IMG/VR virus record: IMGVR_UViG_3300020436_001107
Location: 1-25,528 of that record
Direction: 5' to 3' (one strand)
Length of the DNA stretch: 25,528 nucleotides
Source: a virus
Positions 6,348-25,528 of the stretch are shown in pieces. The notes beneath the pieces were generated by a model. It made no database searches. It worked only from the letters and a program-made list of their open reading frames with translations, and was not told the origin of the DNA. Both the position numbers and the translations under genes were made by a program. Each line of letters begins with the position of its first letter. Position 1 is the first letter of the stretch.

Positions 6348-7007
6348 ATGATGCAAAAAAACGAATGGCATGTCGTCACAGAGTTTGAAAAAAAGATTGC
6401 AGAATTCTTTGGAGCACCTTACGCAGTAGCAACGGATTGTTGCACAAATGCTCTTGAGCTTTGTTTAAGATTAGAAAAAAATAAAAAGTCTAAAGAAGTC
6501 AAATCAATAACTGTACCTTTTAACACTTACATTTCTGTTCCTAATATGTTAATTAAAAATGATTGGCGTTTTCAATGGGGCGATGTTAGATGGCATGAGT
6601 ATTATTATTTAACAAAAGAAATAATTGATGCAGCTGTACATTGGAAGAAAAATGGTTATGTGCCAGGTACCAAAATGTGTTTAAGTTTCTTTTATAGAAA
6701 ACATTTAAGTACAGACAGAGGTGGTATGATTCTTTTAGATAATAAAGAAGATGCTGAACTGTTAAGGTTAATGTGTTATGATGGCAGGTCAAGATCAAGT
6801 GTGCCATGGAATGAACAATATATAAGTGTGTTTGGTTATCATTATTATATGACACCACACAAAGCAAAAATAGGATTAAAAAATTTTGAAAAGGTAAAAG
6901 ACATACCTCGTAAAGAAAAGAATTGGGATTGGTACCCAGACATTCACGAGCTACCTGTCTTTAAACAATTTGGTAATGATGAGAAGTTTAGTATTAGTAC
7001 AAAGTAA
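6348..7007 (+). CDS. Shortened DegT/DnrJ/EryC1-type aminotransferase
   Basis: This is a fold-type I PLP protein of the sugar-aminotransferase family, 219 residues against the usual 360-400. Visible family elements are FEKKIAEFFGAPYAVATDCCTNAL (14-37), the VPFNTYISVPN segment (56-66), the DAA motif (94-96; Asp contacts the PLP ring nitrogen), and SFFYRKHLSTDRGG (113-126), where Lys118 aligns with the PLP-binding lysine. About 60 residues between VPFNTY and DAA, and most of the small C-terminal domain, are missing. It may work on a nucleotide-sugar amine in a reduced form or have changed role. Start is ATG 6348 or 6351. It overlaps the next gene by 32 bases. Confidence 0.82.
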   Translation: MMQKNEWHVVTEFEKKIAEFFGAPYAVATDCCTNALELCLRLEKNKKSKEVKSITVPFNTYISVPNMLIKNDWRFQWGDVRWHEYYYLTKEIIDAAVHWKKNGYVPGTKMCLSFFYRKHLSTDRGGMILLDNKEDAELLRLMCYDGRSRSSVPWNEQYISVFGYHYYMTPHKAKIGLKNFEKVKDIPRKEKNWDWYPDIHELPVFKQFGNDEKFSISTK

Positions 7008-8070
7008 TACTGGTCATGGACATATCAGTAGAGCAACAGCATTAGGTGAACACCTAAATGAAAGAGTTATCATAACTCGACCTTTTACAGGTAAATCAAA
7101 ATCAATAGATTTCTTTGGTAAAGATAAAGAGTATAACGATCTATATCAAGACTATAGAGAGTATAACCCAGATGTAATTATTACAGAGGGTTATCCTTTT
7201 GGTCGATATGGTTGGGACCCCTTTTGGACAGAGCAATGGGGTGAGGACTGGCAACACAATGGTATATTAGATATATTAGAACATGCAAAAGAAAATAAAA
7301 AAAGAATATATTCACTAGATAGAGACATACCATGGATACAACCAAAAGAAATGTTTTTCTATACAGAAAGACTTAATGAATTTTATGATGGTGTTTTTTT
7401 CGCTGGCGATCATAACTTCATAGATGCAACAACTCAGTTACACGATACACCAATGATAGATTGTGAAATACACAATACAGGTTATGTTACATATCCATAT
7501 AAAAGACCAAGTGTTGATAAAAGAAACGGCATATTAGTATCAGGTGGTGATTGGTATGAACTAACTCATCATTATCAAAGATTGTTTTTACAAGTTAAAG
7601 AAAAAATGATGTGGCAAAAAATGTCATTTGTAGTTGGACCAAAGACACCAAAAGATATTAGAATTATGGCAAAGAATAGAGGTATAAACTTAATTGAAAG
7701 ACCAAGTGTAAATGAGTTTAGAGATTATCTATCAGTACACCAAATGGCTTTTACAATGTTAGGATATATGACTTTTACAGATTTAAATATAACTAAAACA
7801 CCAGCATTAGTTACACCAAATGAACCTACATCGTCTGAACTGTACGATGTAAATAATAATGTTATTGCGACAGAGGAACCATATAGAGCATCTAGATATT
7901 CAGATGAAGGTGGTTGCCATTGGATACCTAACAAAGATTTAGAAATTGATGTAGTTATGGAAGGCATAGAAGAGACTTTAAAAATAAAAGAAGAGGATAT
8001 ACCAGATATTGATTTAGACGGTGGAAATTATGTTAAGCAGATTATCTCAAGCACATTACGATACCATTAA
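6976..8070 (+). CDS. GT-B fold glycosyltransferase-like protein
   Basis: The protein has 364 residues. An N-terminal Rossmann half opens LVLVQSNTGHGHISRATAL (5-23), with the glycine/His-rich loop of MurG/UGT-type transferases. A second half begins at about residue 175 (NGILVSGGDWYEL) and carries FVVGPKTPKDI, LIERPSVNEF and the TPALVTPNEPTSSEL region where GT-B enzymes bind the nucleotide sugar. Donor and acceptor are unknown. The family label rests on fold-like motifs, so other nucleotide-sugar enzymes with this fold cannot be excluded. An in-frame TTG at 6970 is a less likely start than ATG 6976 or 6979. It lies between the aminotransferase and radical SAM genes. Confidence 0.72.
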   Translation: MMRSLVLVQSNTGHGHISRATALGEHLNERVIITRPFTGKSKSIDFFGKDKEYNDLYQDYREYNPDVIITEGYPFGRYGWDPFWTEQWGEDWQHNGILDILEHAKENKKRIYSLDRDIPWIQPKEMFFYTERLNEFYDGVFFAGDHNFIDATTQLHDTPMIDCEIHNTGYVTYPYKRPSVDKRNGILVSGGDWYELTHHYQRLFLQVKEKMMWQKMSFVVGPKTPKDIRIMAKNRGINLIERPSVNEFRDYLSVHQMAFTMLGYMTFTDLNITKTPALVTPNEPTSSELYDVNNNVIATEEPYRASRYSDEGGCHWIPNKDLEIDVVMEGIEETLKIKEEDIPDIDLDGGNYVKQIISSTLRYH

Positions 8071-9088
8071 TCCTTTATTAGCAAGTGGGCATTTAAATGC
8101 AGCTGTTGAGGGAAAGTATCATTACCCACATACAATAGTTTTGATACCTGGTTTATCGTGCATGTTTAAATGTACTTTTTGTGGTAGAAACTACGATGCC
8201 AGATTTAAAAATAGTGACATAAAATACTTTCATGTTTATGAGCAATTAATAAAACAAGATAAAGGAAGATCACAAATAAACATTGGTGGTGGTTTAGAAC
8301 CTATGACTAATCCACACATTAATAAAATTATTAAATTACTTTATGAACATGGTTATCGTTCTAGAATGATTACAAATGGTTTTATGTTAACACCAAAATG
8401 GGTTGATAAAAACCCTGAGGTACATTTACTAGATCATTTAAGAATATCTGTTTATGGTATAGATGAAGAGGAATATAATAGAACTACGAGACACGACAAA
8501 GGATGGCAAGTAGTAAAAAATAATTTGATAGAATACAACAAACGATCTTTTAAAACAGATGTAAGTATTAATTATGTTATACTACCAGAAAACTTTAAAA
8601 GATTACATGAGTTACTTAATTACATAGAAGACATTGGTGGAGTAAGAGAGTTGTCTTTAAGAGAAGACTTTACAGCTAATCAATCGATTGAAGATAGAAA
8701 AAAATTTAAAGAAGTATTATTCTCATTTAGAGACATGGCGATTAAGCGTAAGATAAAAGTAGATTATGGTTATGCAATGAAAGAATTACTAGAGGGAAGA
8801 GAAGATTGTAAACTAATTCAATGTGACTTTAAACATCTTGACAATACACAATCACCTCAAGTAAAAATATATGTAGACCCTAAAGGTGACATATATAATT
8901 ATACTGGTGCATCTTTTTTAGATAGAGAAGGTAGCGAAAAACATATATTAGGTAATATATGGAACTCGTCTATAGAAGATGAACTAAAAAAACAAAAAAA
9001 AATTGAACCATCAAGTGATGATCTAAAATATTTAGATGCGTTTGCTCATTTGATAGAATATTATAAATGGAGTGTTCGTAATGTATGA
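8030..9088 (+). CDS. Radical SAM enzyme
   Basis: In this 352-residue protein CMFKCTFC at 44-51 is the CxxxCxxC motif that holds the 4Fe-4S cluster (Cys44, Cys48, Cys51). INIGGGLEPMTNP near 86-98 is the GGGEP SAM-binding segment, and a normal partial TIM barrel follows (SRMITNGF, LRISVYG). The C-terminal part has the KIYVDPKGDIYNYTG and LGNIWNSSIEDEL segments common in SPASM-type proteins but lacks their cysteine set. It makes a 5'-deoxyadenosyl radical; substrate unknown. GGTGGA (8020-8025) fits as ribosome-binding site for ATG 8030, preferred over GTG 8021. It overlaps gp62 by 8 bases. Confidence 0.9.
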   Translation: MLSRLSQAHYDTINPLLASGHLNAAVEGKYHYPHTIVLIPGLSCMFKCTFCGRNYDARFKNSDIKYFHVYEQLIKQDKGRSQINIGGGLEPMTNPHINKIIKLLYEHGYRSRMITNGFMLTPKWVDKNPEVHLLDHLRISVYGIDEEEYNRTTRHDKGWQVVKNNLIEYNKRSFKTDVSINYVILPENFKRLHELLNYIEDIGGVRELSLREDFTANQSIEDRKKFKEVLFSFRDMAIKRKIKVDYGYAMKELLEGREDCKLIQCDFKHLDNTQSPQVKIYVDPKGDIYNYTGASFLDREGSEKHILGNIWNSSIEDELKKQKKIEPSSDDLKYLDAFAHLIEYYKWSVRNV

Positions 9089-9476
9089 GTTGAAAGAGTA
9101 TCTTAATTCTATAAACTATGGAAAAAATAATCTTATGGACAGTGGTGATGTAATGTATGAAAAGAAGTATCCAGCATATGTAGTTAATAAATGTCTAGCA
9201 CCTTTTAATGATACGGTTATGTTAGTAAATGAAATGAATCGTAATCATCATCTAGACAAGAAACTACAGTATGACTTTTTACTAAATAGTTTAAGGACAC
9301 GTAAAAGGTTTGCACCTTGGATGAGGTCAAGCAAGTCCAAAAATTTAGAGTATGTAAAAGAGTATTATGGTTATAATAATGAAAAAGGAAAATCGGCTCT
9401 TAACATATTAAACGATGAACAAATAAAACAAATAAAAGAAAAATTGAATAAGGGTGGTAAACATGGAAAACGTTAA
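9081..9476 (+). CDS. gp62: Clamp loader small subunit (T4 gp62-like)
   Basis: The protein has 131 residues, shorter than T4 gp62 (187) but in the range of marine T4-like phages. YPAYVVNKCLAPFNDTV, then VNEMNRNHHLDKKLQYDF and RKRFAPW, are conserved gp62 segments. It completes the clamp loader with gp44. GGAG at 9069-9072 lies 8 bases before ATG 9081, which I prefer over GTG 9072. It is followed by regA with a 14-base overlap, as in the T4 order gp62-regA. Confidence 0.92.
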   Translation: MYELKEYLNSINYGKNNLMDSGDVMYEKKYPAYVVNKCLAPFNDTVMLVNEMNRNHHLDKKLQYDFLLNSLRTRKRFAPWMRSSKSKNLEYVKEYYGYNNEKGKSALNILNDEQIKQIKEKLNKGGKHGKR

Positions 9477-9894
9477 ATGGTCTAGAGAGCAGATGTTGGA
9501 AGTGACTCTAAAACAACCTGACGATTTCCTAAAGGTCAGAGAGACACTTTCACGTATCGGCGTAGCATCAAGAAAAGAAAAAAAATTATATCAATCATGT
9601 CATATACTTCACAAGCAAGGTAAGTATTACATAGTACATTTCAAAGAGCTGTTTGCATTAGATGGTAAGGAAACAAACTTATCAGAAAATGACATAGGTC
9701 GTAGAAATAGAATAGCATCACTATTAAGCGATTGGGGTCTAGTATCAATCATAGGTAAAACAGAACCTATCGCACCATTAAGTCAGATTAAGATTATTTC
9801 ATTTAAAGAAAAATCAGAGTGGAATTTAGAAACAAAATATAATATTGGAAAGACTAAAGAAGTGAAAAATGATGCAAAACCTATCGGAACTTAA
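9463..9894 (+). CDS. regA: RegA-like translational repressor
   Basis: The protein has 143 residues (T4 RegA: 122). Family segments are QPDDFLKVRETLSRIGVAS near the N-terminus, then CHILHKQGKYYIVHFKELF and a NDIGRRNRIASLLSDWGL helix. RegA binds AU-rich sites around the start codons of early mRNAs, including clamp and clamp-loader messages in T4, and blocks ribosome binding. The extra C-terminal residues are Lys-rich. AGGGTGGT (9451-9458) precedes ATG 9463; the GTG at 9454 lies inside that ribosome-binding site and is rejected. In T4 gp43 follows; here three other genes intervene. Confidence 0.93.
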   Translation: MENVKWSREQMLEVTLKQPDDFLKVRETLSRIGVASRKEKKLYQSCHILHKQGKYYIVHFKELFALDGKETNLSENDIGRRNRIASLLSDWGLVSIIGKTEPIAPLSQIKIISFKEKSEWNLETKYNIGKTKEVKNDAKPIGT

Positions 9895-10609
9895 ATCACA
9901 ATTAAGAAAAATAGAGGAAGTACATTTAGACTATACACCATATGAAGAGTATGGTCGATATCGTTTTCCTATCGATAAAATAAAAGAATATTCAACAGTC
10001 TATAGTATTGGTGTCTCAAAAGATGTTGACATGGAAATTGCTATGGCAACTGATAATCCTAATTTAAAATTTCATTGTTTTGATGGTTCACCTGAATCAG
10101 CACAGTGGTGGAAAACAGATAGTTGGCCGTTTAAACCTCAAATGGAGTTTCATAATGTTTGTTATGCACCAGATAATGGTACACATAAATTTTATTTTAA
10201 TCCTACAGAAATAGAGAATGAAAAAGGATATGGTGATAGACCATATGGTAGAGAGTATAATTTAAAACCACATTTTATCAAATCAGTAGACTCTATCTAT
10301 GAAGATAAAAATCAATCACATGTTTTAGTTGAAACACAAAATTTAAGAACTATGATTAACAAACATGGTATGCCTGATTTAATTAAGGCAGATACTTGGG
10401 GCGTATGGTATGATACTTGTCGAGAAATATTAGATCATAACATACCAGTAAAATGTTTTCATGTTAGAGCTCACTTATATTGTCCTAATCCTCACGAGGC
10501 AATGTTTGATATGATTGAAGTTATAGATGAATTTAGATCGAAAGGATACAACGCTTGTTTATCTCGAAAAAGAGAAAACTTTGGTTGTGATATGTTTTTT
10601 ATAAAATGA
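9869..10609 (+). CDS. FkbM-family methyltransferase-like protein
   Basis: The protein has 246 residues. VYSIGVSKDVDMEIAMA (44-60) is the glycine-containing motif I of FkbM-type SAM methyltransferases and FDGSP (71-75) is the next cofactor-contact segment. Later PDLIKADTWGVWYDTCREIL (about 164-183) corresponds to the family's LLKMDIEGAE segment but has lost the usual Glu-Gly-Ala core. These enzymes usually O-methylate sugars or related polyols. The degenerate second motif leaves activity uncertain. It overlaps regA by 26 bases and the next gene by 4 (ATGA). ATG 9869 and ATG 9872 are equally possible starts. Confidence 0.72.
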   Translation: MMQNLSELKSQLRKIEEVHLDYTPYEEYGRYRFPIDKIKEYSTVYSIGVSKDVDMEIAMATDNPNLKFHCFDGSPESAQWWKTDSWPFKPQMEFHNVCYAPDNGTHKFYFNPTEIENEKGYGDRPYGREYNLKPHFIKSVDSIYEDKNQSHVLVETQNLRTMINKHGMPDLIKADTWGVWYDTCREILDHNIPVKCFHVRAHLYCPNPHEAMFDMIEVIDEFRSKGYNACLSRKRENFGCDMFFIK

Positions 10610-11793
10610 CAGTTTATGATGAGTGGACACCTCTTAAAAAAGTCCTAATAGGTAAAACCTATGATGTTAGTAAAGTAGAAGATGAGTTTGAGAATAAAAT
10701 TCTCATGGAGTACGACAACACAGTACGAAATAGAAGCGTGGAATATGCTGATAATACTCTAGATTACACTAATCATAAAAGAGATATCAAAGAACAATTA
10801 CCATTATACAAAGATACTTTAAAAAAAATACATGATGAAACAAATGAAGATTTAAATTTACTTGCCAAGTTGTGTCAACAGTATGGTGCTGAAGTTGTAA
10901 GACCAGATGTTATTCCTAACATTGAAGATGGTTTAAGTCACCCGATGCAATGTAGAGATACAATAGGAAAGATTGGTAATACCATATTTGAAGTTTACAC
11001 AGCTAAAAAAGAAAGAGGTTTAGAGAACTTAAATCATCAAAGAGTAATGTTAGATGAATTTAAGAATGGTGCTAGATACATTGCAATGCCACCAATGATG
11101 TATGAAAGTAAACCACAACAAGTCACAACAGATATAGACGAAGTAAACAGATATTGCAATGAAGAGATAGAATCATATGATAATCAAAATTGCATTATTG
11201 GTGACACAGCTGCTTTCTATAAATGTGGAAAACATATATTTCATACTTTTGCAAATCCTCAAGATAGATTAGGTATAAAAGAACATTCACAAATATGTAT
11301 TACTAACAATGGTTTAGAATGGTACAAAAGGGAATTTCCTAAACATGAATTTATTGAGATGCAAGCCTACGGACATGTAGATGGTAAGATAGCAATATTA
11401 AGACCAGGGTTAGTATTAACATGGAAAAAAGAATATGTACCAAAAATAATGGTTGACAATAATTGGGATATCATTATAATGGACCCATCAGCAGAATACG
11501 ATGGTAAGACTATCAAAGCATTATGCGAAGAGAGAGGTGTAAAGAATTATCCTATGCCAGAGTTATTAGGTGTGGCTCAAGAAACACGATTTGATTGTAA
11601 TGTGTTATCTTTAGATGAAAACACTATTATTACTTCTGGTTATGATAAGAACTTAGCAGACAAGCTAAAAAAATATAATATCGAAATGATACCTTGGGTT
11701 AATCGTTGGAACTTTTTATGGTCTGGTGGTGCTCATTGTTGTTCATTAGATTTAAAACGAACTGGCAAATTGGAGAACTATTTTAATGATTGA
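10606..11793 (+). CDS. Glycine-amidinotransferase-like enzyme
   Basis: The protein has 395 residues and begins DEWTPLKKVLIG, the usual opening of the amidinotransferase/arginine-deiminase (pentein) superfamily. All three catalytic positions of L-arginine:glycine amidinotransferase can be aligned: the Asp in GDTAAF (matching DAADF), His257 in GHVDGK (matching HIDAT), and Cys378 in GGAHCCS (matching GGxHCxT). It is therefore expected to move an amidino group from arginine to an amine, giving a guanidino product and ornithine; the acceptor is unknown and hydrolysis is the alternative. It is joined by ATGA overlap to the FkbM-like gene and by 8 bases to the oxygenase gene, so the three are probably translated together. 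Confidence 0.88.
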   Translation: MTVYDEWTPLKKVLIGKTYDVSKVEDEFENKILMEYDNTVRNRSVEYADNTLDYTNHKRDIKEQLPLYKDTLKKIHDETNEDLNLLAKLCQQYGAEVVRPDVIPNIEDGLSHPMQCRDTIGKIGNTIFEVYTAKKERGLENLNHQRVMLDEFKNGARYIAMPPMMYESKPQQVTTDIDEVNRYCNEEIESYDNQNCIIGDTAAFYKCGKHIFHTFANPQDRLGIKEHSQICITNNGLEWYKREFPKHEFIEMQAYGHVDGKIAILRPGLVLTWKKEYVPKIMVDNNWDIIIMDPSAEYDGKTIKALCEERGVKNYPMPELLGVAQETRFDCNVLSLDENTIITSGYDKNLADKLKKYNIEMIPWVNRWNFLWSGGAHCCSLDLKRTGKLENYFND

Positions 11794-12307
11794 ATTTTTT
11801 GACGATGTATTAGAAATACATATAGCACAATTAATAGATGAGTCTGTTCACAATGGAACACACCCTTGGCATTGGAACTATAAAGCAAACTCTAAAATAC
11901 CATCAAGACATTGGCATACCTTAGCAGGTCATAGCATAGATGAAATGATGAAGAATGGTTATGATTACTTGGGCCCATTATGGGAAACTATTGAACTTAA
12001 ATATCCAAAACTTAAAATTAAAAGATGTTATTTAAACGCACATACACCTGGCGTTGAACCAACAATACATAAGGACGATGGCGAAGTCACTTTCATATAC
12101 TATCCTAAATTAAATTGGGATGTAAACTTTGGTGGTGGCACAACAATTTACGATGAGAACCTTAACAAAGGAACTCTAATTAATTATAAAGGAAATAGAT
12201 TAATATGTTTTACAGCATCATTGCCACATCAAGCAATGCCTGTATCTAGATTATGTCATGATTTAAGAACTTGTATAGTTTTTAAAACAACTAAAGTGAA
12301 TGAGTAA
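11786..12307 (+). CDS. 2-oxoglutarate/Fe(II) dioxygenase
   Basis: The protein has 173 residues. It has the iron-binding facial triad HxD...H (His95 and Asp97 in TIHKDD; His148 in SLPHQAMP) and Arg161 in LRTCIVFK for the 2-oxoglutarate carboxylate. The FGGGTTIYDENLNKGTLINY stretch between them is the usual core of prolyl-hydroxylase-like members. Such enzymes hydroxylate a C-H bond of a protein, nucleic acid or small molecule; the sequence alone does not say which. It precedes gp43 with an 8-base overlap and follows the amidinotransferase, whose product it could hydroxylate. Confidence 0.85.
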   Translation: MIEFFDDVLEIHIAQLIDESVHNGTHPWHWNYKANSKIPSRHWHTLAGHSIDEMMKNGYDYLGPLWETIELKYPKLKIKRCYLNAHTPGVEPTIHKDDGEVTFIYYPKLNWDVNFGGGTTIYDENLNKGTLINYKGNRLICFTASLPHQAMPVSRLCHDLRTCIVFKTTKVNE

Positions 12308-14777
12308 ATTTTATACTAATATAATTCAATGGGGTAACAATCTTCTATTGAGAGAGATTGTAAATGGTGAGCGAGTTAATCGTAGGGTTAAGTATTCGCC
12401 AACTATGTTTTGCCCTGTCATGAGAGAAACAAAGTATAAAACCTTACAAGGCAAGTATGTCATGCCTATCAAACATGAGACAATCAAAGAAGCAAAGAAC
12501 TGGGTACAACAATACGAAGATCAACCTCACCTAGTTTATGGTAACACCAACTATCAGTTTTCATATCTGTATGAACAATATCCTAACCTTGATTGGAATA
12601 TGGATGAGATACTAATTATCACTATCGATATTGAAGTTGCTTGTGAGAATGGTTTCCCAAATGTAAAAGATGCAGTTGAGGAAATGTTATCTATCACGAT
12701 TAAAAATCAGCAGAATAAACAAATATTTGTTTGGGGTGTGGGTAAATTTAAAACAGAAAGAAAAGATGTTGTTTATATTGAATGTGAAAATGAATATGAA
12801 TTACTTACAGAGTTTCTAAAGTTTTGGAAAGTAAATCAACCAGACGTTATTACAGGTTGGAATACAGAGTTTTTTGATATACCTTATTTGTGTAATCGTA
12901 TCAAAAAGATCATGGGTGAAGATACTCTAAAAGATTTATCACCATGGCGTTCAGTAATATCTAAAACAGTTTATCAAATGGGTAGACAATATCAGGTGTA
13001 TGATATTCAAGGTATTGCAGCTCTTGACTATTATGATTTGTATCGTAAATTTACATACACTAACCAAGAAAGTTATAAACTAGATTATATTGCTAGTGTT
13101 GAACTTGGTATTAAAAAGGATGAAAATCCACATGAAACTTTTAGAGATTGGTACACAAATGACTTTCAATCTTTCATAGATTACAATATCAAAGACGTTG
13201 AGATAGTTGATCAATTAGAAGACAAGATGAAACTAATTGAACTATGTTTAACTATGGCATATGAAGCAAAAGTAAATTATGTTGATGTTCTAGGAACTGT
13301 TAGGTATTGGGATATGTTAATACACAATTACTTAATGGATAAAAAGATTGTAATACCACAAAAGACAGAGAAACAAAAGTCTGACAAGTATGAAGGTGCA
13401 TATGTAAAAGAACCTCAAGTTGGTGAACATAAATGGGTTGTGTCTTTTGACTTGAACTCACTATATCCACATTTAATCATGCAGTATAATATATCACCAG
13501 AAACATTGAAAAGTGAAAAGACAGTACCAAACATGAATGTAGATAAACTACTATCTAAAAAAGTTGATACAAGTATTTTAGAAAATACTACCATGACACC
13601 AAATGGTGCTTTGTTTAGAACTGATAAAAAAGGTTTCTTACCAGAGATGATGCAGACAATGTATGATGATAGGGTAAAATATAAACGAGCGATGTTAGAT
13701 GCTAGACAACAGTATGAGAAAACAAATAATCCTAACCTTCTCAAGATGATATCTAAATTTGATAACATACAGATGGCGAGAAAGATTTCACTTAACTCAG
13801 CATATGGTGCGATTGGTAACAACTGGTTTAGATATTACAACTTACCTATGGCAGAGGCAATCACTACTGCTGGTCAGTTGTCTATTCGTTGGATAGAAGA
13901 AAAATTAAATCAATACATGAATGATTTACTAAAAACAAATGATGTTGATTATGTTATTGCGTCTGATACAGATTCAGTTTACATACGTTTTGATGAACTG
14001 ATTGAAAAGTTTAAACCAAAGAACCCTGTAGATTTTTTAGACACTATCACAAAAGAGAAGATAGAACCATTTATCAATCAAGCATATAAGGAACTTGCTG
14101 ATTACACACACGCATATGATCAAAAGATGCAAATGAAACGTGAGGTGATTGCAGATAAAGGTATTTGGACAGCAAAGAAAAGATATATCTTAAACTCTTA
14201 TGATGTTGAAGGTGTTAGATATGCTAAACCTAAATTAAAAATTATGGGAATAGAAGCGGTTAAGTCTTCAACACCAGCACCTTGTAGAGAAAAAATCAAA
14301 CAAGCATTACGTATAATTATGGATGGTGATGAAAAAGAACTAAACACTTTTATTCAAGATTTTAGAAAAGATTTTCTAAACATGACACCAGAAGATGTGG
14401 CATATCCTAGAGGAGTAAATGGTTTAGACAAATGGACTGAATCACATAACCTATTTAAAAAAGGAGCACCAATACATGTTAAAGGTGCTATACTTTACAA
14501 TCACTTGATTAGAAAAAATAGATTGGCTCATAAGTATCCTTTCATACAAGAGGGTGATAAGATTAAATTTTTACATATGAAACTTCCAAATGTATATCAA
14601 TCTTCTAGCATCTCTTTCATAACTAAACTACCAAAAGAAATAAATTTTGCAGTAGATTATGAATTGCAGTTTGAAAAGTCTTTTGTAGAACCACTAAACT
14701 ATATTATAGAAAAAATTAAATGGAATGTAGATCGTAGTTATGGAACTCAAGGAACATTAGAAAGTTTTTTTGCATGA
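12300..14777 (+). CDS. gp43: Family B DNA polymerase (T4 gp43-like)
   Basis: The protein has 825 residues (T4: 898) and is complete. 3'-5' exonuclease motifs: DIEVA near 109 (Exo I), WNTEFFDIPYL (Exo II) and YNIKDVEIVD (Exo III). Polymerase motifs: FDLNSLYP near 382-389 (motif A), RKISLNSAYGAIGNN near 494-508 (motif B) and SDTDSVYIRF with Asp556 (motif C), then TAKKRYIL. The C-terminal TLESFFA is a clamp-binding tail of the gp45-interacting type. All key carboxylates are present, so it should be active with proofreading. It overlaps both neighbours, which are not replication genes. Confidence 0.98.
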   Translation: MSKFYTNIIQWGNNLLLREIVNGERVNRRVKYSPTMFCPVMRETKYKTLQGKYVMPIKHETIKEAKNWVQQYEDQPHLVYGNTNYQFSYLYEQYPNLDWNMDEILIITIDIEVACENGFPNVKDAVEEMLSITIKNQQNKQIFVWGVGKFKTERKDVVYIECENEYELLTEFLKFWKVNQPDVITGWNTEFFDIPYLCNRIKKIMGEDTLKDLSPWRSVISKTVYQMGRQYQVYDIQGIAALDYYDLYRKFTYTNQESYKLDYIASVELGIKKDENPHETFRDWYTNDFQSFIDYNIKDVEIVDQLEDKMKLIELCLTMAYEAKVNYVDVLGTVRYWDMLIHNYLMDKKIVIPQKTEKQKSDKYEGAYVKEPQVGEHKWVVSFDLNSLYPHLIMQYNISPETLKSEKTVPNMNVDKLLSKKVDTSILENTTMTPNGALFRTDKKGFLPEMMQTMYDDRVKYKRAMLDARQQYEKTNNPNLLKMISKFDNIQMARKISLNSAYGAIGNNWFRYYNLPMAEAITTAGQLSIRWIEEKLNQYMNDLLKTNDVDYVIASDTDSVYIRFDELIEKFKPKNPVDFLDTITKEKIEPFINQAYKELADYTHAYDQKMQMKREVIADKGIWTAKKRYILNSYDVEGVRYAKPKLKIMGIEAVKSSTPAPCREKIKQALRIIMDGDEKELNTFIQDFRKDFLNMTPEDVAYPRGVNGLDKWTESHNLFKKGAPIHVKGAILYNHLIRKNRLAHKYPFIQEGDKIKFLHMKLPNVYQSSSISFITKLPKEINFAVDYELQFEKSFVEPLNYIIEKIKWNVDRSYGTQGTLESFFA

Positions 14778-15580
14778 TAGATAAACTACTAGTTGAAAAC
14801 ATAGAACAAACAACACCAGACAAAGAGGTCGCAGTATTATTATCTGGTGGGGTGGACAGTATATCTGTTGCACTAGCAGCTCACAGACTAGGGAAAACTA
14901 TAACAGCATATTCTTTTTGTCTTGACAATGAACCGTCTTATGATTATAATAAAGCAAAAGAGATTGCAGAGAATCATAATTGGGCATTTGTAGGAACTAG
15001 AATAGATACTACAAAACTTGAAGAGGACTTTTATAGATTAGTAAGTTTGGGATGTAAGAAGAAAACCCACTATGAATGTGTGTATCCTTTCTTACATGTT
15101 TACCCAAAGATTGCAGAGACTTACGTACTCTCTGGTTGGGCGGCAGATGGTTATTATGGAGTGAGTAAAAAAGCAAATATCCATTATAAACATACAAAAG
15201 AAAAGTTTGATGAGTTTAGAGATCAATACTTTTTACCAGAGAATACTGCTGGATATATTATGCATAAAAAAGTTTCAGATATGTTTAATAAAAAATTTAT
15301 TACACCATATCTAAGAATGAACGTGAAAGAATATTTTTATAGTATGGATTGGTATCAACTAAATCAACCTTATCAGAAACATCACGTAAGAACTGCTTTT
15401 AACCTTGACAAAGACGTTAAGAAACATTTAAACTTACAATTAGATTCAAAAATAAATGTTTTGTTCGAGAGACTGCTAAATAATAAAAAGATAAACTACA
15501 AGGGAAGATTAAGAGTAATGGACATGGTTAGAGATTGGCCTAAACAAGAAGGTGCAACACTAAACCAATTTATGTTATGA
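14774..15580 (+). CDS. PP-loop ATPase, asparagine-synthase C-domain-like
   Basis: The protein has 268 residues. SGGVDS (24-29) is the PP-loop that adenylates a substrate, releasing pyrophosphate; SGWAADGYYG (120-129) sits where asparagine synthases have GADELFGGY. There is no glutaminase domain, so ammonia or another nucleophile would have to be supplied otherwise. Asparagine synthase activates a carboxylate and turns it into an amide; relatives close lactam rings or form other amides. QueC and tRNA-thiolase alternatives are less likely because their zinc or cysteine patterns are absent. It is joined by 4-base ATGA overlaps to gp43 and to the DNA methyltransferase, and the pairing with the latter is suggestive. 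Confidence 0.78.
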   Translation: MIDKLLVENIEQTTPDKEVAVLLSGGVDSISVALAAHRLGKTITAYSFCLDNEPSYDYNKAKEIAENHNWAFVGTRIDTTKLEEDFYRLVSLGCKKKTHYECVYPFLHVYPKIAETYVLSGWAADGYYGVSKKANIHYKHTKEKFDEFRDQYFLPENTAGYIMHKKVSDMFNKKFITPYLRMNVKEYFYSMDWYQLNQPYQKHHVRTAFNLDKDVKKHLNLQLDSKINVLFERLLNNKKINYKGRLRVMDMVRDWPKQEGATLNQFML

Positions 15581-16716
15581 AGTACAAACCTTATTTACTA
15601 AAAGATGTACATGCTGGAGAAGCACAAAACAAATTTAGAGTAATATCTACGTTTGCAGGTGGCGGTGGTTCATCTACAGGTTATAGACTTGCAGGTGGTA
15701 AGATACTTGCAATAAATGAGTTTGTAGAAGAGGCAAGAAATACTTACAAAGATAATTATCCTAATACACCTATCCTTGATGGTGACATAAAAGAATTACA
15801 AGGTAAAGATTTTTTAGATATTACAAAATTAAAAGAAGGCGAACTAGAATTACTAGATGGTAGTCCACCATGTTCAGCATTTAGTATGTGTGGTACACTT
15901 GCGAGAGAGGGAACTGTACATAGTGACGGATATGGTAAAACTAAATCTTACTCTGATGGTAAGATTGTTACTAATATAGAAGATTTATTTTTTGAGTTTT
16001 TAAGAGTTGCAGATAAGATTAGACCAAAGACTATCATTGCAGAGAATGTTGAAGGTCTAACAGTTGGAGAAGCAAAACAATATTTTAATAAAATTCAAAA
16101 CACATTTGAAGACATCGGATATCAAGTAGTTGCAAAAGTACATGATTGTTCACAATTTGGTGTTCCACAAAGAAGACGTAGAGTTTTCTTTATGGCAGTA
16201 CGTGATGATATTATGGATAAGGTTGGTTTAAACTTTATGACATTATCATCTATATTTCCTGAGCCAAACAATACTATCACAACTTTACAAGGTGCCTTCG
16301 ATGGTTTAGAGTATGACAAAGAGGAAGTTGATATGTTAACTACAAAATGGAAAGAGACAGCATACTATAAACAAACATGTGTTTTGATGCCAAGAAACCC
16401 AGAGAGAGTTATTACTGGTACAGACTATCATCCTAAAGGATGGCATTTTAATTTAAAGATTGCTTCAGAGTTTCATCCTAGTCCTACTATCACAGCAATG
16501 GGTGCTACAGAAAAGACTGCTGGAGTTTGTCATTGGAATGATGATAGAAAGTTTACACTTGGCGAATTAAAAAGAGTCACTTCACTACCAGATGACTTTA
16601 AACTAACAGGCAAGTGGGCACAAAAAAGTGAAAGGTGTGGTAGGATGGTGCCAAGTCTTATGATGAAAGCTCTTGCTAATTCAATGTATGAAAAGGTGAT
16701 AAAAAATGTCAGATGA
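15577..16716 (+). CDS. DNA (cytosine-5) methyltransferase
   Basis: The protein has 379 residues with the C5-methyltransferase motifs in order: FAGGGGSS (26-33, motif I), SPPCSAFS with catalytic Cys99 (motif IV), AENVEG (155-160, motif VI), QFGVPQRRRRVF (193-204, motif VIII), the SPTITAMG segment (motif IX) and ALANSMYEKV at the end (motif X). It transfers a one-carbon group from SAM to C5 of cytosine in DNA. The target-recognition region between motifs VIII and IX is short, so the target site cannot be read. No companion restriction enzyme is adjacent. An ATGA overlap joins it to the PP-loop gene. Confidence 0.95.
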   Translation: MKYKPYLLKDVHAGEAQNKFRVISTFAGGGGSSTGYRLAGGKILAINEFVEEARNTYKDNYPNTPILDGDIKELQGKDFLDITKLKEGELELLDGSPPCSAFSMCGTLAREGTVHSDGYGKTKSYSDGKIVTNIEDLFFEFLRVADKIRPKTIIAENVEGLTVGEAKQYFNKIQNTFEDIGYQVVAKVHDCSQFGVPQRRRRVFFMAVRDDIMDKVGLNFMTLSSIFPEPNNTITTLQGAFDGLEYDKEEVDMLTTKWKETAYYKQTCVLMPRNPERVITGTDYHPKGWHFNLKIASEFHPSPTITAMGATEKTAGVCHWNDDRKFTLGELKRVTSLPDDFKLTGKWAQKSERCGRMVPSLMMKALANSMYEKVIKNVR

Positions 16717-20805: not shown

Positions 20806-20986
20806 AATCGAGATTAGTACTTTTGGGGGAAAGAAACCCTATCTTTGTTATGATAAAAAGTACAATCATATTGTTCATAGATTTGAATTTAAAGAAGACG
20901 CAAGGGAGTGGTGTAAAATGCAAAACAAAAACTGCACCTTCGGACGATTTGAGTTCCCTCGATTTCTACGACCATACGATGAATAA
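20777..20986 (+). CDS. Small conserved-looking phage protein
   Basis: The protein has 69 residues, starts inside the helicase end (29-base overlap) and is rich in aromatic and basic residues: KIEISTFGGKKPYLCYDK, then HRFEFKEDAREWCKMQNKN and FPRFLRPYDE. The pattern resembles small marine-phage proteins in which an EA.EWC.FQN segment recurs, but no function is known. A second frame over the same bases (20823-21017) looks less protein-like. Confidence 0.55.
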   Translation: MKNFKNSRFKIEISTFGGKKPYLCYDKKYNHIVHRFEFKEDAREWCKMQNKNCTFGRFEFPRFLRPYDE

Positions 20987-20989
20987 ATA
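20982..20989 (+). promoter_or_regulatory. Candidate late promoter before the 3' cassette
   Basis: AATAAATA matches the T4 late box TATAAATA at 7 of 8 bases and is followed by CTTGTT. Predicted transcript start near 20996 leaves room for GGAGAG (21007-21012) before ATG 21017. A second box, TATAAATG (21000-21007), is too close because transcription would begin after that ribosome-binding site. Confidence 0.45.
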
Positions 20990-21016
20990 CTTGTTATTGT
21001 ATAAATGGAGAGATTG

Positions 21017-22357
21017 ATGTCAATCAGCAAGTACATAAAACAAGTAAGAAACAGACAAGAAAACAAAGTAGATCATCTTGAAAGAATATCAGACCTCATT
21101 CAAGAGGATGCTATGAATCTTCCTATTGACATTTTTAGAGGATTATCCTATTCAAAATCTAGTAAACTCTCTTCATCTAAAAGAGATGTCATAATTGTAC
21201 GTTCACCAGACAGAGAAACAGATCGAGACGAAATATTAAGAAATTTAAGACAAGCTGGTGTAGATGCAAAACTAGGAGACTCACAATCTAGTGTAGACCC
21301 TATCGATGGTAAGTTTGAAGATAGAGCATTTAGAATATTCGTTAAACCAGAATCAGGTGGAATGGGTGAGACAACTTTAAATGCTTCTATGACTGAACTG
21401 TTTCCATGTATCGCATTTGAAAACAAATACAAACCAAAAGATGCTAAATCTTTTCATGAATATTTGATAGATGTTGATCTTAAAAAACTTAAATGTGTTA
21501 TACCAGGTGATGTAGAAAAAGCTCAAGAGATAATCAACAGAGCAGATACTTCATCAAAGTTTGAAGATAAAATGAACAATGCTATTGCAATTCATAAATT
21601 TATTCTAGATCAAAACAAAGATAAAAGAATAGTTGAGACTAGGTGGGGGCCAACAAATAAATCTAAACCCACAGGTGTACCAGGTGGACACCCTGGTGAT
21701 ATATTCTTAACTTACTTTGACAAATCAATATTAGGAGTTAGTTTAAAAGCAGGTGGTAAGAAAACCTCTGAACCTAAACTAAACACTTATGTTAATACTG
21801 TATTCAACGCATTTAGACAAGGAAATAAGTTAAGAAGAATTTATGCTAAAGTATATAAAGACGCACATGGTAAGATTCCAGGTATGCCACCAGCAAATAG
21901 ATTTCAGAAAGATAGAAAAACATCACAAGTTTTAAGAGACTTTGACAAAAAGAATAATAAAAGATACGAGGAACTTTACAATGTATATCTTGAGATAATG
22001 AGACAAGAAGTTATCAAACTGTTTAATGCAGATAGAAAAAATACTTTAGAGTATATTAAGAAAGAAGTTTTAAGAGATGCACCAGATGTTCCTACATTGG
22101 TTATTAAAGCAGCTGGTAAAGGTTATTCAGAGATAACTGAAAAGGATGCTTTGGGAGTATTCATACCACAAGTAGATTTTGTAAAAGCATATCCTAGCAG
22201 AACTTCAAAGCAAAATTGGGAGATAGAATTAAAGTCTGGTTCAGATAGTTTGATTATGAAGATGTCTATTAGAACAAATAAATCAGGTCATGCAGGTGTA
22301 AAAAAATTAGGACAACACTCTCTTGCAGTAAAATATAACTCACTAGGAACAAAGTAA
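21017..22357 (+). CDS. Unknown protein with a PD-(D/E)XK nuclease-like core
   Basis: The protein has 446 residues. I prefer ATG 21017, with GGAGAG at 21007-21012, over ATG 21005, which overlaps that site. Residues 224-246 read GGHPGDIFLTYFDKSIL then GVSLKAG: an Asp (228) at the end of one strand and S-x-Lys (242-244) in the next, as in restriction-enzyme relatives where SxK replaces (D/E)xK. Before it lies a long helical region (VEKAQEIINRADTSSKF); after it a Lys/Arg-rich segment typical of nucleic-acid binding. Residues 27-31 (LIQED) could be a prohead-protease cleavage site. No family is firmly recognised; the nuclease reading is an inference. Confidence 0.85.
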   Translation: MSISKYIKQVRNRQENKVDHLERISDLIQEDAMNLPIDIFRGLSYSKSSKLSSSKRDVIIVRSPDRETDRDEILRNLRQAGVDAKLGDSQSSVDPIDGKFEDRAFRIFVKPESGGMGETTLNASMTELFPCIAFENKYKPKDAKSFHEYLIDVDLKKLKCVIPGDVEKAQEIINRADTSSKFEDKMNNAIAIHKFILDQNKDKRIVETRWGPTNKSKPTGVPGGHPGDIFLTYFDKSILGVSLKAGGKKTSEPKLNTYVNTVFNAFRQGNKLRRIYAKVYKDAHGKIPGMPPANRFQKDRKTSQVLRDFDKKNNKRYEELYNVYLEIMRQEVIKLFNADRKNTLEYIKKEVLRDAPDVPTLVIKAAGKGYSEITEKDALGVFIPQVDFVKAYPSRTSKQNWEIELKSGSDSLIMKMSIRTNKSGHAGVKKLGQHSLAVKYNSLGTK

Positions 22358-22809
22358 TGAAAACATTTAAAGATTTAATGAATGATAGTAGATGTCCACC
22401 AGGCATGAGGTACGACAAAAAATTAAAACAATGTGTGCCAATAAAGATAAGATATAAAGGAAGATATATTCTCGGAGTTCCCAAAAGTTCAGATAACTCA
22501 AATGGTGATGATAGTGGTAATGGTAACGGCAATGGCAATGGTAATGGAAATGGTAACGGAAACGGAAATGGTGGAAACGGCAACGGTGGAAACGGTGGTG
22601 GAGGTAATGGCGGAGGCGAGTCTTACTTAGCTGCAGACGTTAGAAGAATGCCCGATGGTAGATATGGTGTATATGCAGATAAATTTAAAAATAAAAAAAG
22701 AGTTATGACACCAGGTGGAAAACACGCAAAAGAATTAAAAAAAGTTTACAGTAATAAAAAAGATGCCAATGATTACATGGCAGCTATAATGATGGCGAAA
22801 GGTGGATAA
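22357..22809 (+). CDS. Gly/Asn-rich linker protein with MKTF N-terminus
   Basis: The protein has 150 residues in three parts. Residues 1-40 hold MKTFKDLMND and CPPGMRYDKKLKQCVP, a Cys-framed motif found near the N-terminus of several marine-phage proteins as I recall it. Residues about 54-87 are a nearly pure Gly-Asn run. Residues 88-150 form a basic domain (YLAADVRRMPDGRYGVY, then KDANDYMAAIMMAKGG). Function is unknown; the layout suggests an anchor, a flexible tether and a binding module. The start overlaps the previous stop (TAATG), as does the next gene's start. Confidence 0.75.
   Translation: MKTFKDLMNDSRCPPGMRYDKKLKQCVPIKIRYKGRYILGVPKSSDNSNGDDSGNGNGNGNGNGNGNGNGNGGNGNGGNGGGGNGGGESYLAADVRRMPDGRYGVYADKFKNKKRVMTPGGKHAKELKKVYSNKKDANDYMAAIMMAKGG
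22516..22617 (+). repeat. Degenerate hexanucleotide (GGNAAN) run coding for Gly-Asn repeats
   Basis: About 34 codons of alternating GGN and AAY, ending in glycine-only codons. Synonymous codons vary (GGT/GGC/GGA, AAT/AAC), so the array is old or selected at protein level rather than freshly expanded. It is locally GC-rich compared with the surroundings. Confidence 0.9.
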
Positions 22810-24041
22810 TGTTAAGTTTTATACAAGAACAAGCTGGTAAAAATCTTCACATGGAACACATTGAAGATGAGATTATTAATCATGGTGTTCCTGGTGGAAG
22901 AGCAGCAATAAACTTTTTAAGAAGTTTAAGAGATATGTTAGCAGGTGCAAGTAGATCATCTGTTAATATGACTGTTAAATGGGATGGTGCTCCAGCGATA
23001 TTCGCTGGTATAGACCCATCTGATGGTAAGTTTTTTGTTGCAAAGAAATCAGTATTTAATGTTAATCCTAAATTATACAAAACAAATAAGGAGATAGACG
23101 ATGACTTATCTGGTCAACTTAATGCAAAGTTTAAAGTGGCTCTCAAAGAGTTTTCAAAACTTAACATTAAAGGTGTACTTCAAGGTGATCTCATGTTTAC
23201 AAATGATCTTGGTAAAACTAAAATCGATGGTGTTTCATATATCACATTTCAACCCAACACTATTGTTTATGCTGTTCCTAGTGATTCTGACTTTGCAAAG
23301 GTTATAAACAAGGCAAAGATTGGAGTAGTATGGCATACAACATATACAGGTAAAGACTTACCTAGTATGAAAGCATCTTTTGGTGCAGACATAAAAAAAC
23401 TTACAAACACATCATCGGTTTGGATGGATGATGCACAATATAAAGACGTTTCTGGTAGAGCAACATTTACTAAATCAGAAACAGATCAAATAACTAAAAT
23501 ATTATCTGAAACAGGTAAGACTTTTCAAAGAATATCAAGTCCTTTACTTAAAAAATTCTTGAGTTTACAAGGGTCTATGACTGGTCAGTTAGCAGGTGCA
23601 TCATACAAGACATATTATAATAGTAAAGTAAGAGCAGGTGAGACAATCAAAAACCCTAGTAAATATGCGAAAGAATACGTTGATTTTGTTGAAAAAGCCT
23701 TGCAAAAACAAGTAGATAAGTTAAAAACACCTAAAGGCAAACAAAAATATGAGAATATAAAGAAACAATATACTATAGAAATTAAGAAACATATACGTAA
23801 TTTAGAACAGGTTGTCAGATTTCAAAACTTATTAATAGATGCTAAAATGCAGATAGTAAAAAAACTAAATAGTGTTAAGCAGTTGACTGACACGTTTATT
23901 AAGACTGGTAATGGATATAAAGTGACTAACCCAGAGGGTTATGTAGCAATAGATAGAGTGACAGGCAACGCAGTTAAATTAGTTGATCGTATGGAGTTTT
24001 CTTTCAATAACTTCACAGCGATTAAGCAATGGGATAAATGA
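22809..24041 (+). CDS. KxDG nucleotidyltransferase/ligase-like protein (DUF6267-like)
   Basis: The protein has 410 residues. VKWDGAPAIFAG (56-67) looks like motif I (KxDG, Lys57 as the adenylated lysine) of the ATP-dependent DNA/RNA ligase and capping superfamily. FFVAKKSVF follows, LQGDLMFT near 122-129 resembles motif IIIa/IV, and IGVVWHTTYTG resembles motif V without its usual paired lysines. The C-terminal 150 residues are Lys-rich and helical. The closest label I can give is the phage family DUF6267, of unknown function. An N-terminal MLSFIQEQAGKN may be a capsid-targeting peptide. Ligation, end-healing or a non-catalytic scaffold role are all possible. Confidence 0.82.
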   Translation: MLSFIQEQAGKNLHMEHIEDEIINHGVPGGRAAINFLRSLRDMLAGASRSSVNMTVKWDGAPAIFAGIDPSDGKFFVAKKSVFNVNPKLYKTNKEIDDDLSGQLNAKFKVALKEFSKLNIKGVLQGDLMFTNDLGKTKIDGVSYITFQPNTIVYAVPSDSDFAKVINKAKIGVVWHTTYTGKDLPSMKASFGADIKKLTNTSSVWMDDAQYKDVSGRATFTKSETDQITKILSETGKTFQRISSPLLKKFLSLQGSMTGQLAGASYKTYYNSKVRAGETIKNPSKYAKEYVDFVEKALQKQVDKLKTPKGKQKYENIKKQYTIEIKKHIRNLEQVVRFQNLLIDAKMQIVKKLNSVKQLTDTFIKTGNGYKVTNPEGYVAIDRVTGNAVKLVDRMEFSFNNFTAIKQWDK

Positions 24042-24044
24042 TAA

Positions 24045-24440
24045 ATGAGAACGTTCGCAGAATTAACTAAAGATATAGAAGAGTTGCGTGTAATCAACGT
24101 TGCACAAAGACGTAAGATTGCAAGACGAATGAAACGTCTAGCAAAATCTTCAGCATTCCAAAAGAAAAAAGAAAGAGCAAAATTAAAGATTGCTTCGCCC
24201 GAGAAACAAGCTGTAAAAGCAAGAAAAGCTGCTAAAAAAATCATAATCAAAAAGTTCTTTAAAAATTATGATAAGTTATCCCCACAAATGAAGATGAAAG
24301 TTGATCAAAGAATAGCTGCCAAATATGGTAACGCTATCAATAAGATTGCTCAACGTATGAAGATCAGAGTTAAAAAAGGTGAGATAGAAAAAGTAAAAGC
24401 AGCTAGAGCTGCGAGACAGGCGAAACAAAGTGAAAAATAA
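24045..24440 (+). CDS. Small very basic helical protein
   Basis: The protein has 131 residues, more than a third Lys or Arg, with almost no aromatic residues after position 70. It opens MRTFAELTKDIEELRV, similar to the MKTFKDLMND of the gene two places upstream. The body (RRKIARRMKRLAK, AVKARKAAKKIIIKKFF) should form amphipathic helices able to bind DNA or RNA. No family is recognised; a DNA-condensing internal protein is one reading. It overlaps the next gene by 11 bases. Confidence 0.75.
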   Translation: MRTFAELTKDIEELRVINVAQRRKIARRMKRLAKSSAFQKKKERAKLKIASPEKQAVKARKAAKKIIIKKFFKNYDKLSPQMKMKVDQRIAAKYGNAINKIAQRMKIRVKKGEIEKVKAARAARQAKQSEK

Positions 24441-25528
24441 TATAACAAAGTTTTCAGTTTACGAAGCACCTCTTGTAGAAAAGAAAGTTGTATTTACTTT
24501 TGGTCGTTTCAATCCACCAACTACAGGTCACGAAAAACTGATTGATAAAGTTAAATCAGTTGCAGGTAGTGATGACTATCGTATCTATCCATCACAATCA
24601 CAAAATCAAAAGAAAGACCCTCTTCCATATTCTAAAAAAATAGCATACATGAGAAAGATGTTTCCTAAACATAAAAGAAGCATTGCTGTAGATAAAAATC
24701 CTAAAACTGCTATAGATGTTGCAACGTCTTTATATAACTCTGGTTATAGAGATGTAACCATGGTCGTAGGTTCAGATAGAGTAAAAGAATTCGAAACACT
24801 ATTGAAAAAATACAATGGTGTAAAAGCAAGACATGGTATGTATAAGTTTGACAACATCAAAGTTGTATCTGCTGGTGACAGAGACCCAGATGCTGAAGGT
24901 GTGTCAGGCATGTCGGCAAGTAAAATGAGACAGGCTGCTACTGATGGTAATATGAATGCTTTCATGGATGGTTTGCCAAAAGGATTTAGAGACGGTAAAC
25001 AATTATACAGAGATGTTAGAAAAAACATGGGTATCAGAGAAGAGAAAGATATGGGTACCATGAGTGACTATGAGTCTAAGAGAGATGCGTATCTAACAGG
25101 TAAGATTTGGAACATAGGTGATATAATCGAAGCAAAAGATATGACAGGTCCTATTGTTCAAAGAGGTACAAACTATGTGTCAATGGAAGTAAATAACAAA
25201 ATTCATAGAGTATGGTTACATGATATAGAAGAAGGTTCTAGTGCTTTTGCACCAAGTGTATTTAATAAAGATTTAGGTCGTGTTGCTAAAGATCAAGATA
25301 AAACATATAATAAAATGTCTAGTAGAGACAAGAAAAAAGTATTACAATTAATAAAAAGAAAAAAGATGGGTGTTGGATTTGCATTAAGACAAGTTCAAAA
25401 AGAATATGCACATGGTGGAAGAGCTCAAGGATATGGATTGTACAGACCAACAGCTGATTTAAATTTAAGAGCTTCTAAATTAGATAAGACAAGACAAGAC
25501 AAAGATGTGAAAGACGAACCAGGTACAC
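24430..25528 (+). CDS. Nucleotidyltransferase (cytidylyltransferase fold), 3' truncated
   Basis: The frame opens at GTG 24430 and continues to the window edge (366 residues visible). VVFTFGRFNPPTTGHEKL (20-37) holds the (H/T)xGH nucleotide-binding motif, MVVGSDR is the middle motif, and VSGMSASKMR (about 161-170) is the family's ISSTxxR motif, so this is an adenylyl- or cytidylyltransferase of the NMN-adenylyltransferase type. A second part (NIGDIIEAKDMTGPIVQRG, then VHRVWLHDI-like KIHRVWLHDIEE) is unassigned and probably a separate domain. N-terminal FSVYEAPLVE precedes the catalytic domain and could be a cleavable targeting peptide. No ATG is available before the TFGRF motif, so the GTG start is required. 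Confidence 0.85.
   Translation, partial: MKNNITKFSVYEAPLVEKKVVFTFGRFNPPTTGHEKLIDKVKSVAGSDDYRIYPSQSQNQKKDPLPYSKKIAYMRKMFPKHKRSIAVDKNPKTAIDVATSLYNSGYRDVTMVVGSDRVKEFETLLKKYNGVKARHGMYKFDNIKVVSAGDRDPDAEGVSGMSASKMRQAATDGNMNAFMDGLPKGFRDGKQLYRDVRKNMGIREEKDMGTMSDYESKRDAYLTGKIWNIGDIIEAKDMTGPIVQRGTNYVSMEVNNKIHRVWLHDIEEGSSAFAPSVFNKDLGRVAKDQDKTYNKMSSRDKKKVLQLIKRKKMGVGFALRQVQKEYAHGGRAQGYGLYRPTADLNLRASKLDKTRQDKDVKDEPGT

Follow-up and report, generated by a model that had tools for sequence, protein, structure and literature searches.

A likely late operon of tagged head proteins in a fragment of a marine T4-like phage

The window analysed here, a 25.5 kb IMG/VR virus fragment (record IMGVR_UViG_3300020436_001107; 25,528 nucleotides), carries at its 3′ end a cassette of five consecutive genes, P1 to P5, the last of which runs off the window end. 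We consider it likely that this region is a late operon of tagged head cargo, delivered with the DNA as the internal proteins of phage T4 are. For the protein family, packaging into the head has good support; cleavage in this phage, binding to the prohead core, injection and enzyme activity are what we infer. Judged from its genes, the window comes from a T4-like phage of the Kyanoviridae (marine T4-like phages), whose gene order—replication proteins, DnaB-like helicase, cassette—it keeps. Among named phages the closest is Methylophilales phage Melnitz-1 (Melnitz), in which gene 15 is 72% identical to P3, and the cassette also follows the helicase in Melnitz, HTVC008M, S-SM1, S-SZBM1, S-RIM2, S-CAM9 and Bellamy. 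A sequence-only reading of the window had singled out five N termini resembling the T4 capsid-targeting sequence, and all five are indeed where it placed them: LIQE at residues 27–30 of P1, MKTFKDLMND in P2, MLSFIQEQ in P3, MRTFAELTKD in P4 and MKNNITKFSVYEAPLVE in P5. The cassette is laid out as follows, a slash here and below marking the end of a leader or tag.

21017..22357, plus strand: P1, leader MSISKYIKQVRNRQENKVDHLERISDLIQE/D and a nuclease-like payload (D228...S242-L-K244); phrog_2496; invariant residues in A1; model m7f6d73849bda
21017..21106, plus strand: the P1 leader, residues 1–30, ending in LIQE
22357..22809, plus strand: P2, a small basic protein with the tag MKTFKDLMND and a Gly/Asn-rich linker; isoelectric point (pI) 9.9
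22809..24041, plus strand: P3, tag MLSFIQE/Q and DUF6267, a predicted nucleic-acid ligase (K57xDG, E376GYV, K390); PF19782, E = 7.8e-106
24045..24440, plus strand: P4, a strongly basic protein (pI 11.2) with the tag MRTFAELTKDIEE, which is conserved in the family
24430..25528 (past the window end), plus strand: P5, leader MKNNITKFSVYEAPLVE/K directly before a cytidylyl/NMN-adenylyltransferase-like domain

The tag was read upstream of conserved domains in 149 related loci (about 230 related loci overall), with P-loop kinases taken in a separate scan. Unrelated domains (DUF6267, cytidylyltransferase-like, the small basic protein and two P-loop kinases) have in common an N-terminal M-x-x-F-x-x-[LIF], mostly ending in an [LIVF]-x-E that adjoins the domain. 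Examples in relatives are MISFAELTE/DKGGKNLH (DUF6267), MKNFRDIVE/ARGDTAVFTFGRF (cytidylyltransferase), MKTFRELGSELSE (P4 family), MKTYKDLMND (P2 family) and, from the separate scan, MKTFAELQE/GVYDP and MKSFRDFIFE/Q on the two kinase families. In HTVC008M and the Stenotrophomonas soil phage DLP6 the tags read MLSFTGYSNLSE/A, MIPFILKE/G and MMKFTQFLAE/S, the last being the start of the DUF6267 protein of DLP6. If these N termini are a targeting signal they should be conserved independently of the domain downstream, and when tested this held for the P2 to P5 families, for both kinase families and for the P1 leader. The [LIVF]xE site precedes the domain in 51 of 57 unique P3 leaders and 31 of 33 unique P5 leaders, as against 24% of control open reading frames (ORFs), and F or Y at position 4 together with the cleavage site occurs in 5% of control ORFs.

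Profile searches gave the same picture across families and across phages. A nine-position profile built from P3-family tags alone, when run over the 217 genes of Melnitz, ranked a kinase first, the P4 homologue second, the P5 homologue third and the P3 homologue fourth, and just two of the 217 genes score above the P2 tag of the window. A profile trained on the ligase and kinase tags placed the NMNAT, the capsid protein, the protease and the scaffold at ranks 1–4 among 66 genes of S-SCSM1, all four of them virion proteins by mass spectrometry (MS). The likeness to T4 is likewise borne out: when the pooled marine-tag profile was tested on 74 T4 genes, the real T4 peptides, as given in the T4 record, were the best T4 matches, with ipI (MKTFKEFTSTTTPVSTITE/A) at rank 1, ipIII at rank 2 and ipII at rank 3. 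Since ipII and ipIII have one tag in common (MKTYQEFIAE/A), this ranking amounts to about two independent matches.

At the P1 position the signal takes a second, longer form. The conserved start of P1 is 21017, which corrects the longer start at 21005, and at this locus 54 distinct genes have a common leader of about 30 residues (type MSLRKYVRQLRPIQENY..PVDKIQ.FLSE); in 51 of the 54 an [LIVF]xE lies at residues 24–38, as against 31% of control ORFs. The payloads behind this leader fall into six BLASTP groups with no matches between groups at 1e-3; a profile comparison with hhalign joined some subgroups and left most unrelated. Leaders from different payload groups are nevertheless up to 93% identical over 30 residues, and such identity before sequence-unrelated domains shows that payloads are swapped behind the leader between phages. 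P1-locus genes in L124, L127, L062, L111 and L038 do not have the first domain (about residues 35–115), the leader being joined straight to the core.

The T4 precedent also bears on the two small proteins of the cassette, P2 (whose relatives keep MKTY[KN][DE]LM) and P4. In T4 ipI the motif MKTFKEF comes first and ITE/A only at residue 19, a position deduced from a gene of 95 codons and a mature protein reported to have 76 residues, so that targeting motif and cleavage site are separable, as P2 and P4 would need. Pfam hits of P2 to TrAA12 and of P4 to AcrB were rejected as low-complexity or below cutoff. The five window proteins are all basic (pI 9.6–11.2), which fits expectation for DNA-associated internal proteins.

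Because the window does not cover the head genes, protease and capsid protein were compared in Melnitz. Its protease is a T4-type prohead protease (PF03420), and its gp23 reads AFLSE/AAPT where the FLTE/A of T4 would lie; the S-SCSM1 capsid protein reads SFLAE/APT. Cut positions in both capsid proteins are taken over from T4. The FLSE/A at the end of the Melnitz capsid propeptide matches the ending of many of the leaders. Late expression is suggested by the region before P1, in which two candidate boxes lie.

20982..20989, plus strand: likely T4-type late promoter box AATAAATA, at the usual distance to the P1 start
21000..21007, plus strand: TATAAATG (earlier noted as TATAAAT at 21000), then GAGAG, close to the ribosome-binding site

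A late-promoter-like box had been proposed for the first gene and one is present; the one at 21000 (TATAAAT), however, extends into the ribosome-binding site, and AATAAATA is the better candidate. In 51 of 52 relatives NATAAAT occurs no more than 50 nt upstream of the P1 start, as against 12% of shuffles, and in Melnitz TATAAATA stands before gp23, gp22 and the gene at the P1 position.

Published MS places members of these families in virions. In S-SM1 it detected a "putative citidylyltransferase (T4-GC190)" (PMC3037559), which is S-SM1_190 and starts MKKFSAFLNE/A; P5 is 43% identical to it over 273 columns. The virion table of S-SZBM1 lists S-SZBM1_140 (PMC9146016), a cytidylyltransferase homologue that starts MRFRQFIIE/A, and the text of the same paper does not mention S-SZBM1_141 (DUF6267) or S-SZBM1_142, both of which are untagged. 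Virions of S-CREM2 contained the cytidylyltransferase ORF154 and its neighbours ORF155 and ORF156 (PMC10665884). The S-SCSM1 virion proteins found by MS include genes 89 to 93: S-SCSM1_91 is an NMNAT starting MKSFLQFLKE/A, S-SCSM1_89 starts MDSKTFNSLSE/A, and S-SCSM1_90 matches P1-locus payload cluster 3 (BLASTP 4e-26; hidden Markov model 1e-55). The published virion MS thus covers the P5 family in three gene-checked phages and a P1-locus payload homologue in one, all of them cyanophages.

Several observations weigh against reading the cassette as tagged, packaged and clipped cargo. The published virion MS concerns cyanophages, and we found none for this phage, for its closest relatives or for P2, P3 and P4; carry-over in CsCl (caesium chloride) fractions is a caution that two of the MS studies themselves raise; and a cut N terminus has been observed for none of these proteins. 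In cyanophages only P5 is clearly tagged. S-SZBM1, S-RIM2 and S-CAM9 have DUF6267 and P1 homologues without a tag, so tagging is not general among cyanophage homologues. Virions of S-SCSM1 contain S-SCSM1_90 although its LNE site is weak, and the profile is imperfect, as the MS-positive S-SZBM1_140 scores low and the untagged S-SZBM1_141 higher. In P2 and P4 the half of the motif that serves targeting is present, but not the standard cleavage site ([LI]xE at residues 8–10).

With regard to what the cargo might do, the ligase-like call for P3 is plausible to good. K57-W-D-G (motif I), E376-G-x-V (motif IV) and K390 (the motif V lysine) are invariant in 34 sequences with identity down to 26%. 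The P3 model has a mean pLDDT (predicted local distance difference test) of 79, and its listed fold matches (50 rows) are nucleic-acid ligases throughout, the best being Naegleria RNA ligase (Z 9.2, root-mean-square deviation 3.7, 185 aligned residues), with T4 RNA ligase 2 at Z 7.7; a plain Foldseek search on P3 gave no significant match. A Z near 9 is modest by itself, but motifs and modelled fold together make a persuasive case for predicting DUF6267 to be a member of the covalent nucleotidyltransferase/nucleic-acid ligase superfamily. A search of the library for literature on DUF6267 found nothing. For P5 the nucleotidyltransferase assignment holds: directly behind its leader PF01467 matches at 29.3 bits (cutoff 21), with a GRFNPPT-GH signature and phrog_395 at 2.5e-73.

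P1 had been called nuclease-like, and this is plausible to the extent that a D...SLK signature is kept, although the acidic residue that defines PD-(D/E)XK enzymes is absent. Payload families listed in the profile comparison keep D-[IVF]...S-[LVN]-K, a pattern like that of the PD-(D/E)XK hairpin except that Ser replaces the acid; D228 and K244 are invariant, but with Ser at the (D/E) position P1 was not classed as a PD-(D/E)XK nuclease proper. Three related payload groups keep a Glu 13 residues past the Lys, and Cfr10I-type restriction enzymes have a comparable shift, which we treat as a lead only. In the P1 model the order around the motif is helix-strand-strand-strand, which would fit the PD-(D/E)XK fold, and fold searches were without a significant nuclease match: neither Foldseek nor VIA found anything usable for the P1 core, and PDB sequence profiles gave nothing useful for P1 or P3. 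Matches to polymerase-beta-like nucleotidyltransferase domains (Z 8.9) cover residues 25–113 only, and because this region is missing from some relatives they were kept out of the function call.

These observations can be joined into a sequence of events modelled on T4. The short N-terminal peptide would bind the prohead core in the manner of the T4 capsid-targeting sequence, so that the tagged proteins are built into the core; a gp21-type protease would clip after [LIVF]-x-E where such a site exists, as it does the capsid protein; and the mature proteins would remain associated with the packaged DNA and be expected to pass into the host along with it. Once inside, nuclease-like P1 might attack host or competing nucleic acid at entry, and ligase-like P3, with the tagged P-loop kinase of relatives, might heal and seal broken ends; the kinase and a 5′-nucleotidase-like gene of relatives hint at, but do not prove, a set of enzymes for healing and sealing ends. 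For this last step alone, attack on and repair of nucleic acid at entry is the likeliest role that we can name, and a tentative one. Equally conjectural is the wider scheme of modular delivery, in which one head-targeting leader with swappable nuclease-like effectors, plus tagged ligase-like, kinase and nucleotidyltransferase partners, makes up an injected attack-and-repair kit that acts before phage gene expression.

It is rather unlikely that the tag is simply a peptide for prohead-core assembly and that the proteins serve head assembly (scaffold filling, DNA packaging, concatemer end repair) and are unneeded after injection. The profile does find the N termini of capsid protein, protease and scaffold, so that on this argument the tag marks core membership and not injection, and a small basic protein such as P4 would be well suited to a place in the core or to condensing DNA. 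Yet whole enzyme-like payloads exchanged behind one leader look like cargo facing the host or a rival, and P5-family proteins persist in finished virions. Far less probable is that the enzymes act late in the infected cell, with virion presence due to carry-over and the common N terminus a convergent translation-start or stability feature. The caution of the MS authors and the untagged cyanophage homologues noted above favour it, but several phages, each purified independently, have cytidylyltransferase homologues in their virions, the genes of T4 that best match the tag are those of its internal proteins, and [LIVF]xE is far above control. Chance likeness of AT-rich, Lys- and Phe-rich gene starts, conceivable for a short motif in an AT-rich genome, can practically be dismissed for the P3, P4 and P5 families given the Melnitz ranking by a profile trained on another family, the site counts (with the 5% control frequency) and the T4 ranking.

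Part of this is already known, namely the T4 internal proteins, with their capsid-targeting sequence and polymorphic payloads among which the targeting sequence alone is conserved (PMC3012670, PMC9958956), and the NMNAT-like virion proteins of cyanophages. The likeness to IPI, IPII and IPIII lies in a peptide of about ten residues (MKTYQEFIAE/A; MKTFKEF...ITE/A) on otherwise unrelated proteins. IPI, the one among them whose role is known, is a small inhibitor, whereas the proteins here have enzyme-like domains in one operon, and the roughly 30-residue P1 leader is a second, longer form. T4 Alt, an ADP-ribosyltransferase of the prohead core that is clipped by gp21 and acts on host RNA polymerase (PMC9958956), is a precedent for a core enzyme, although the enzymes differ. 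P5 belongs to the same family as the virion proteins of S-SM1, S-SZBM1, S-SCSM1 and S-CREM2, for which the cyanophage papers name no packaging signal; the tag provides such a signal and adds ligase-like, kinase and nuclease-like members to the group. Giant phages of the SPN3US type also package many head proteins with their DNA as ejection proteins, several of them clipped by a gp21-related protease, but at a different motif, A-x-E (PMC10052503). In the library searched, we found no paper that describes this tag in marine phages, connects the T4 internal proteins with the NMNAT-like virion proteins or reports the swapped payloads.

Taken together, marine T4-like phages probably deliver nuclease-like, ligase-like and nucleotide-transfer proteins, already made, to the host cell along with their DNA. 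The ocean abounds in pelagi- and methylo-myophages, whose hosts do not lend themselves easily to manipulation; a packaging tag that can be read from sequence and predicts head-riding proteins would make it simple to search T4-like phages for hidden injected effectors. It would explain why NMNAT-like enzymes recur in cyanophage virions, DUF6267 gains a likely function, and the T4 targeting peptide, known from coliphages, appears to have close counterparts far beyond them, on enzyme-like domains.

Tagged or related genes also lie near or outside the cassette. In Melnitz the tagged P-loop kinase (Zeta_toxin/AAA_33; MKTFAELQEG) is outside it (L003:31603-32268; Melnitz 64603-65271; also L199-L278), and in HTVC008M a kinase is inside it, between ligase and nucleotidyltransferase. 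The 5′-nucleotidase-like HAD phosphatase (PF06941) is downstream in the gene run of Melnitz and HTVC008M (L002:18025-18537, L279:13308-13898), the HTVC008M copy starting MKYSAFKAETLNLHLVQE. The tag profile gives S-SM1_192 (MLSFKELQEKKTKIKVNPKK) a very high score, and the counterpart of this gene in S-RIM2 begins MLSFKALSERKTKIKINPK (L155:15845-16333, L198:10172-11029).

Elsewhere in the window, 10606-11793 encodes a 395-residue protein that by eye is amidinotransferase-like (SGGAHCCSLDL), with no Pfam match at 1e-4. It lies within a run of apparent accessory genes (6348-16716) that includes a DegT-type aminotransferase fragment, a radical SAM enzyme, a 2OG-Fe(II) oxygenase, an asparagine-synthase-like gene (14774-15580) and a C5 DNA methylase (15577-16716).

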